Positions 7,186 to 11,033 of a DNA stretch of 64,000 nt are shown here, piece after piece. The notes below the pieces were generated by a model that saw only the letters and a program-made list of their open reading frames with translations, was not told the origin of the DNA and made no database searches. The DNA is from Gemmatimonadales bacterium (GTDB lineage Bacteria; Gemmatimonadota; Gemmatimonadetes; Gemmatimonadales; GWC2-71-9). Made by a program: the position numbers and the translations under genes. How positions within the stretch are numbered: position 1 is the stretch's first letter; each line of letters begins with the position of its first letter. Where the stretch lies: NCBI GenBank assembly GCA_036279355.1, contig DASUJH010000047.1, forward strand, positions 1 to 64,000, in the 5' to 3' direction.

Positions 7186-9898
<2,713 letters not shown>

Positions 9899-9915
<17 letters not shown>

Positions 9916-10441
9916 GCCGCCCCTCGGCGAGCACCTGGTCGTAATACGCCTCGAGGCCCGGGTTCACCCCGCGGCAGCCCGCGATCACCTGCTCGGTCCA
10001 GTCGAGATACTCGAGCCGCCGCTCGGTGCTCCAGTCGGGCGGCGGCGACAACGTCACGTCGAGCACGTTGCAGATCTTGTCGCCCAGCTTGATCACCTTC
10101 GCTTTGGCCGACGCGCCGGCCGCGTGCGCCACCTGGAGCCGCTTGCGCTCCGCCTTGAGCAACTGCTTATCGTCGGTCACCTCGGCCACGAGTCCGCGTA
10201 CCTCCGGGCCGAAGCGGCGCTCCAGCTCGGCAAACGTGGTGGCGGTGTCCTCCACCGTGTCGTGCAGGACCGCCGCGATGAGCGTCGCGAGATCGGTGAC
10301 GTCACCGCGGGTGGCGATCACGTTCGCCACCGCGACCGGGTGGTTGATGTAGGGCGATGCGGCGCTGTCCTTCCGGCGCTGGGCGCGGTGCTTGCTGGCC
10401 GCGAACTCGAGGGCGTCGAGCAGCCGGGCGAGATCCGGAAT
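9899..10441 (-). CDS. MESH1-type HD hydrolase, (p)ppGpp/NADPH phosphatase-like, apparent ATT start
   Basis: A 180-residue stand-alone HD domain. Ligand positions match the metazoan enzyme MESH1 (179 aa; His35, His61, Asp62, Asp122) with an offset of one: His34 in INHP, His60-Asp61 in VLHDTVEDT, Asp121 in IKLGDK. The ED pair (64-65) needed for (p)ppGpp hydrolysis is present. The conserved KHRAQRRKDSAASPYINHP segment lies upstream of the first GTG (10330), so that GTG cannot be the true start. In frame upstream there is no ATG, GTG or TTG; the best candidate is ATT at 10441, four bases after a perfect AAGGAGG. A CTG farther in is the alternative. The enzyme would remove the 3' pyrophosphate of alarmone or the 2'-phosphate of NADPH. 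The aminopeptidase gene follows with an overlap. Confidence 0.85.
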
Positions 10442-10445
10442 GGGG

Positions 10446-10452
10446 CCTCCTT
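10446..10452 (-). promoter_or_regulatory. Ribosome binding site deciding the ATT start
   Basis: AAGGAGG on the minus strand, a full anti-16S match, is followed by CCCC and then ATT-CCG-GAT in the frame of the HD hydrolase. No other start-like codon lies at a suitable distance in that frame. An ATG at 10477 belongs to a different frame without recognisable product. Confidence 0.7.
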
Positions 10453-11033
10453 GGGGATGGGCGCAAGATAAACTGTCATAGCGCCGGAGTATTGTCTGGA
10501 TGCCGGCTCACCATGGGCTGGCGGGCGCGCCCCCGACGCCAGGAGACTGCATGACCGATCCCGCTTGGCCTCGTCTGCTGCTGCCGGTGCTGGTCTTTGT
10601 CGTTCGGGCGTTGCGCCGATCCGCCGAACCGAGTGAGCGCGGTCCCGGAGGGCCCGGCGGGAGCGGCCCACGGATCGGCTGCTGCGCACCGGGCATCGTC
10701 GCAGTGTTGAGCGGGCCCGTCGCGGCGTTCAATCGCACATGCAGTGCGGGCGCCGGGACGTGGCGCGCGTTCTATCTCGGGCCGCGCGGCTCGCACTGGA
10801 CCGGCACGCTCCCCGCAGATCCTATGAGCGCCCCGGCCCGCTGCCGCTTTGGTCTCGGCGCGCCGGTCTCCATCCTCACCGGCACCGGTAACTCGACCCG
10901 CACCGGTAACTCGCGCGCCGCGAACCGGTAGCCGAGCCGATGGGACCGGGAAATGACGGGCGGCGGCCGCGGCAAGGGGGTGCACACGCGCGGCGCACTG
11001 GATAACTTGCGGCCTCCGCATCGCGAGCACAGC
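10453..11033. other. Intergenic region without a recognisable gene
   Basis: About 580 bp between the divergent HD-hydrolase and WYL genes. Open frames exist on the + strand, but their products are Gly/Pro/Arg-rich with no family features, and no ribosome site fits them. The region must hold the promoters of both directions and contains the direct repeats listed separately. A GGATAACTT stretch near 11000 resembles a -10 box but I see no matching -35. Confidence 0.5.
10882..10934 (+). repeat. Direct repeats of GCACCGGTAACTCG
   Basis: Two exact 14-base copies lie at 10882-10895 and 10900-10913, 18 bp apart start to start; a degenerate third copy (AACCGGTAGCCG) is at 10923-10934. The core ACCGGT is itself a palindrome. 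They sit 100-150 bp upstream of the WYL regulator pair and could be operator sites. No other copy was noticed in the window. Confidence 0.5.

Follow-up and report, generated by a model that had tools for sequence, protein, structure and literature searches.

A MESH1-type hydrolase encoded in the window (the whole stretch of 64,000 nucleotides that was analysed) probably initiates translation at an AUU codon recruited by a strong Shine-Dalgarno (SD) sequence, and its synthesis would then be low and dependent on the fidelity of initiation factor 3 (IF3), as for infC. We put the probability of this reading at roughly 0.6. The features of the locus, all of which lie on the minus strand, are collected in Table 1.

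Table 1. Features of the hydrolase locus in the window.
Feature	Position	Strand	Basis
Shine-Dalgarno sequence AAGGAGG	10446..10452	-	Sequence; chance counts; anti-SD duplex energy -10.9 kcal/mol
Proposed AUU (ATT) start codon, 4-base spacer	10439..10441	-	Column common to the ATG, GTG, TTG and ATT of relatives
Probable MESH1-type small alarmone hydrolase, 180 aa (HD_4)	9899..10441	-	Domain, structure-chain matches, alignment
First canonical start (GTG), codon 38, 3' of His18 and the INHP motif	10328..10330	-	ORF reading
M1 aminopeptidase ORF, neighbour	7186..9915	-	Listed GTG start; 17-base overlap with the hydrolase 3' end

The AAGGAGG and the ATT are separated by CCCC (10445-10442), a short spacer, and the frame that opens at the ATT closes with TAA at 9901-9899. 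The preliminary description, whose span of 9899-10452 takes in the SD, had proposed an ATT start four bases behind a perfect AAGGAGG in a 180-residue frame without an early ATG, GTG or TTG, and the sequence reads exactly so. The nearest in-frame stop is 22 codons 5' of the ATT; the codons between this stop and codon 38 include no ATG, GTG or TTG, and initiation at the codon-38 GTG would cost the hydrolase His34. The pattern AAGGAGGN{3,9}ATT occurs once in the window with 0.08 expected (it is present in 8 of 100 shuffles), and because of this count a chance origin of the perfect SD directly 5' of the start column of the relatives is unlikely. AAGGAGG alone occurs seven times, with 3.5 expected.

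The hydrolase and aminopeptidase genes overlap at 9899-9915, which makes translational coupling possible. No match to the M1 aminopeptidase or to the WYL neighbour was detected in the hydrolase loci of other genomes, where the flanks mostly extended for 1.5-2 kb. A conserved operon with either gene was rejected, the matches being confined to the window's own loci. A scan of 9700-11000 returned no promoter and no terminator.

The 180-residue protein contains an HD_4 domain (E 1.8e-16). Its best three solved relatives were 3nr1 ('HD domain-containing protein 3', E 8e-50), 3nqw ('CG11900', 3.7e-49) and 5vxa ('MESH1', 7.9e-49), the first two of which we take to be human and fly MESH1. MESH1 chains scored 169-172 bits versus 68 bits for the best long RSH chain. 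With one HD hydrolase domain in about 180 residues, the protein is closest to MESH1, and the MESH1-like identity given to it earlier is borne out. Residues His34, His60, Asp61 and Asp121, presumably the metal ligands, were invariant in 8 of 8 rows of an alignment of the window protein with seven relatives. The one-residue offset from human MESH1 that had been reported for these ligands did not hold for chain 3nr1, to which the window protein aligns with zero offset; we assume that it reflects the numbering of full-length human MESH1. The protein probably destroys the starvation signal ppGpp, as judged from its sequence, and its substrate could be (p)ppGpp, NADPH or both. Two further proteins of this type are encoded in the same genome: L002, which is long (a 742-residue open frame) and has a related HD region, and L003, which is small. 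Both have canonical starts.

Relatives of the gene were gathered by profile search from genome sets that overlap and that include the window's own genome. The gene was present in 21 of 395 genomes of the phylum, 21 of 394 of the class, 15 of 288 of the order and 7 of 102 of the family. To these were added 80 named loci, 30 of which (L033-L062) were close enough for the start tally; the remaining 50 (L063-L112) and the long RSH loci scored below 100 bits and were left out of it. The 28 same-phylum loci comprised three with ATT, 20 with canonical starts, four in long upstream frames (L117, L118, L120 and L180) and one that was unassigned (L127), for which the sole candidate was a TTG that lies 16 codons upstream and has a weak SD. 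Canonical starts were found for 28 of the 30 loci from other phyla, the other two being one with an N-terminal stop (L052) and one partial (L061). The computed tally of starts and SDs passed over L061 and L127 as partial. As a paralogue control, all 23 RSH or other SAH loci from these genomes had a canonical start. Exactly in the column of the window's ATT stand an ATG in L004, a GTG in L005 and a TTG in L009. This column is free of gaps with these three loci and with L011, which itself carries ATT, and one- or two-residue gaps are needed for L006 and L010. The suggestion that the ATT is the start is supported by its position in the column of the relatives' starts and from the ATT and strong SD of L011 and L119, described below.

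Several of the surveyed loci have features of their own. The four long-frame loci all come from genomes of family f7. In L117, L118 and L120 the MESH1-like domain and an N-terminal region of about 300 residues form one open frame (VLAIDWSGAKSG...), and L180 is perhaps alike; the N-terminal region is common to three of the four, and that of L118 had no Pfam match at E 0.001. In L052, the Aporhodopirellula hydrolase relative, a TAG interrupts the N-terminal part at residue 9 of the aligned frame, immediately 3' of several ATG codons. L008, a same-family relative, has a single internal TAG in a frame that is otherwise open.

The two other ATT starts belong to two species of genus g40 from the same order (L011 and L119), whose proteins are about 49% identical to the window protein. 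Only 2 of 19 g40 genomes carry the gene. Each has an ATT in the column of the window's ATT, five bases 3' of GGAGG. The two proteins share 149 of 185 residues, and 112 of the 555 coding bases differ, with 20, 22 and 70 differences at codon positions 1, 2 and 3. These values correspond to a dN of 0.112, a dS of 0.888 and a dN/dS of about 0.13. The leader above the SD aligns poorly between the species; GGAGG and ATT are kept. Sequence comparison thus places the coding part under purifying selection with the ATT conserved. An in-frame ATG 11 codons upstream in L119 makes the case less clean. The SD of this ATG is nearly absent (-1.7), and a 2-base gap between it and the ATT means that the L011 triplet opposite it, a GTG, is out of frame. 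L011, like the window, has no canonical start available. Conservation of the ATT between species is seen in this pair; for the window's genus the searches yielded one genome. In both proteins the INHP motif reads IGHC.

A tree of 53 rows placed the window protein with L004, L005, L007 and L033 (89/86), and L011 plus L119 (100/97) with L129 (90/95). L052 and L060 fell out of this tree, L008 was cut at its stop, and the backbone was open, with a bootstrap that had not settled. Shared ancestry of the ATT starts is disfavored, as the window and L011/L119 fall in separate groups. The ATT start probably arose twice; by this tree two origins are likely, not forced.

The predicted pairing energies of the three ATT starts with the anti-SD were -10.9 (window), -10.6 and -10.3 kcal/mol. 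The strongest value among the 20 same-phylum relatives with canonical starts, each taken as the best over its canonical codons, was -8.1 and occurred in two TTG starts. The three ATT genes therefore have the three strongest pairings among the 23 assigned same-phylum starts, a ranking with a chance probability of 1 in 1771 if all 23 are independent and 1 in 231 if the sister species are counted once; the ATT starts compared represent no more than two independent origins. An association of ATT with strong SDs is not a general rule, because ATG and GTG relatives in other phyla (L033, L041, L047, L059 and L062) have SDs of -10.0 to -11.0. Of 309 genes sampled from the window's genome, 20 have an SD of -10.3 or lower at a canonical start, and the hydrolase SD of -10.9 ranks in about the top 5% of these 309 canonical starts. 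A further count covered 464 kb of this genome (400 kb plus the window) with 370 likely coding ORFs and considered in-frame codons close to the boundary estimated for the coding part. AAGGAGG lay 4-9 bases before such a codon in 10 cases, made up of two ATG, one ATT (the hydrolase gene) and seven other codons once each. The canonical anti-SD was recovered from two of five genomes, including G041; for the window's genome the pattern did not locate the 3' end of the 16S. Masking of the SD by RNA structure was also considered and rejected, since the leaders of the window, L011 and L119 were no better folded than shuffles (z of 0.49, -0.36 and 0.24, respectively). The GGAG of the window is able to pair with an upstream CTCC.

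Among the alternatives, the one that survives best accepts that AUU is used and takes it for a slightly deleterious drift variant, offset by the SD and devoid of regulatory meaning. Weak GUG and UUG starts generally go with strong SDs according to PMC5622118, which would suit such compensation, and the gene has a patchy distribution (present in 7 of 102 family genomes), so that selection on the level of the hydrolase may be weak. We nevertheless consider drift improbable: the ATT has been retained in two diverged species under purifying selection, and PMC5622118 reports switches to AUU as very rare among close relatives, at 1 in 61,358 AUG and 1 in 5,080 GUG starts.

It is distinctly unlikely that the gene is an ordinary one in which a single assembly or sequencing error made an ATG into ATT (a GTG or TTG would require more than one change). 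The preliminary description had held that an ATG at this site in orthologues would mean a base error, and the alignment does contain one in L004, with the GTG of L005 and the TTG of L009 coming close. Because these near relatives L004 and L005 have ATG and GTG, the ATT in the window's own lineage rests on one assembly, that of the one available genome of its genus; the family search yielded no second. The ATG of L004 does not prove an error, however, since L011 and L119 carry ATT with a strong SD at the same place, and ATT in the same column of two species of another genus cannot stem from the window's assembly. An error would also leave unpredicted that the window's SD matches those of L011 and L119 in strength and exceeds those of all 20 same-phylum canonical relatives.

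Initiation at the CTG of codon 7 (10423) would give a slightly shorter, active enzyme with all metal ligands retained, and six relatives (L006, L008, L041, L056, L060 and L123) begin one to three residues after the ATT column. This start is very unlikely, given that the SD ends 22 bases before it, that the local SD energy is just -3.3, and that the nearest CTG in L011 is at codon 6 rather than 7, with CTC in L119. It is hardly credible that the gene begins at the ATG at 10479 (MTVYLAPIPKEAP in another frame) and that an indel error conceals this; that ATG does exist but has no SD-like stretch before it, would put the perfect SD inside the gene and would add an extension that the aligned relatives do not have.

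Initiation at AUU behind a strong SD was also viewed against other near-cognate starts in these genomes. The infC gene was readable in 13 of 20 loci by our reading pattern, with a likely start, assigned by eye, of CTG, ATT or ATC; the other seven did not fit the pattern, and two further infC fragments were left out. In 6 of the 13 there is no canonical codon before the RVN motif in the stretch shown. The two genomes that carry the other ATT hydrolases (G041 and G260) have an infC that apparently starts with ATT, and that of the window's genome apparently starts with CTG, with a GTG further upstream in frame. Of the infC loci (L133 and L138-L156), most readable ones from the window's family appear to begin with CTG, and those from a second family of this order with ATT or ATC. 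These bacteria thus seem to use near-cognate starts where they are expected. An HMGL-like gene in the window's genome (L175:6498-7781, minus strand) has a domain that begins before any ATG, GTG or TTG, and its apparent CTG start seems to overlap the preceding stop codon. The hydrolase start is rare in this genome, yet because infC and the HMGL-like gene also have apparent near-cognate starts it is not alone. The 30 of 370 ORFs that have no canonical start do not amount to a rate, as the codon model seems to take antisense shadow ORFs too.

The combination of a non-canonical start and a strong SD is of an already known kind. Weak starts with strong SDs have been described generally for GUG and UUG (PMC5622118) and for non-canonical starts in Staphylococcus aureus (PMC13009471). 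The AUU start of infC is rejected by IF3, which results in feedback (PMC5472188). The hydrolase resembles infC in its proposed AUU start and differs in being another gene, and because its product is not IF3 no feedback loop is implied. PMC5472188 states that few genes other than infC are known whose expression is set by a non-canonical start. One of them is Streptomyces sigR, which has a GTC start repressed by IF3 and so extends IF3 control beyond infC. Like the hydrolase as proposed here, sigR belongs to a stress response, and its expression is limited by a non-canonical start that follows an extensive SD; it differs in its codon and in encoding a sigma factor, and its control was shown by experiment (PMC5472188), whereas that of the hydrolase is proposed from sequence. 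In S. aureus, cvfC1 (AUU) and ccpN (AUA) likewise pair conserved non-canonical starts with extended SD motifs, and in poor medium reporters with non-canonical starts reached about 10% of the expression obtained with AUG (PMC13009471). These are other genes from another phylum, and their pairing is conserved among staphylococci, for ccpN also in B. subtilis (PMC13009471), compared with two species of one genus and one separate lineage for the hydrolase. An AUU start need not mean regulation, because cvfC1 showed no medium-dependent change (PMC13009471).

With MESH1 and Mesh1-L the hydrolase shares the fold family, the invariant metal ligands and the small single HD domain (PMC3153485; XccSAH, PMC9765508), and the one Gemmatimonadetes taxon that PMC3153485 lists has both Rel and Mesh1-L. 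The difference lies in the start: in our search of the open-access literature, no match listed joined an AUU or other non-canonical start to an alarmone hydrolase of this family.

In the mechanism that we favor, the unusually strong SD would recruit the ribosome to the AUU codon and make up part of the loss from this weak start, and the two together would hold synthesis of the hydrolase low. Synthesis would then depend on how strictly the ribosome, and chiefly IF3, rejects starts other than AUG. We infer both the use of AUU in cells and the repression by IF3; the link to IF3 is drawn by analogy, and the hydrolase is perhaps IF3-sensitive. Overall, the earlier interpretation is partly supported, and the dependence on translation state that it suggested is plausible by way of IF3, for which there are precedents.

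A tentative and more far-reaching view, which we hold to be possible though doubtful, is that alarmone breakdown is tied to initiation fidelity, the AUU placing a hydrolase of ppGpp (or NADPH) under IF3 alongside infC in an arrangement that would have arisen at least twice. A fall of IF3 relative to ribosomes would then raise the hydrolase and clear the stringent signal. Gene finders limited to ATG, GTG and TTG would start the hydrolase at the codon-38 GTG and lose a metal ligand. Control of an alarmone hydrolase by IF3, if it exists, would couple initiation fidelity directly to the stringent response.
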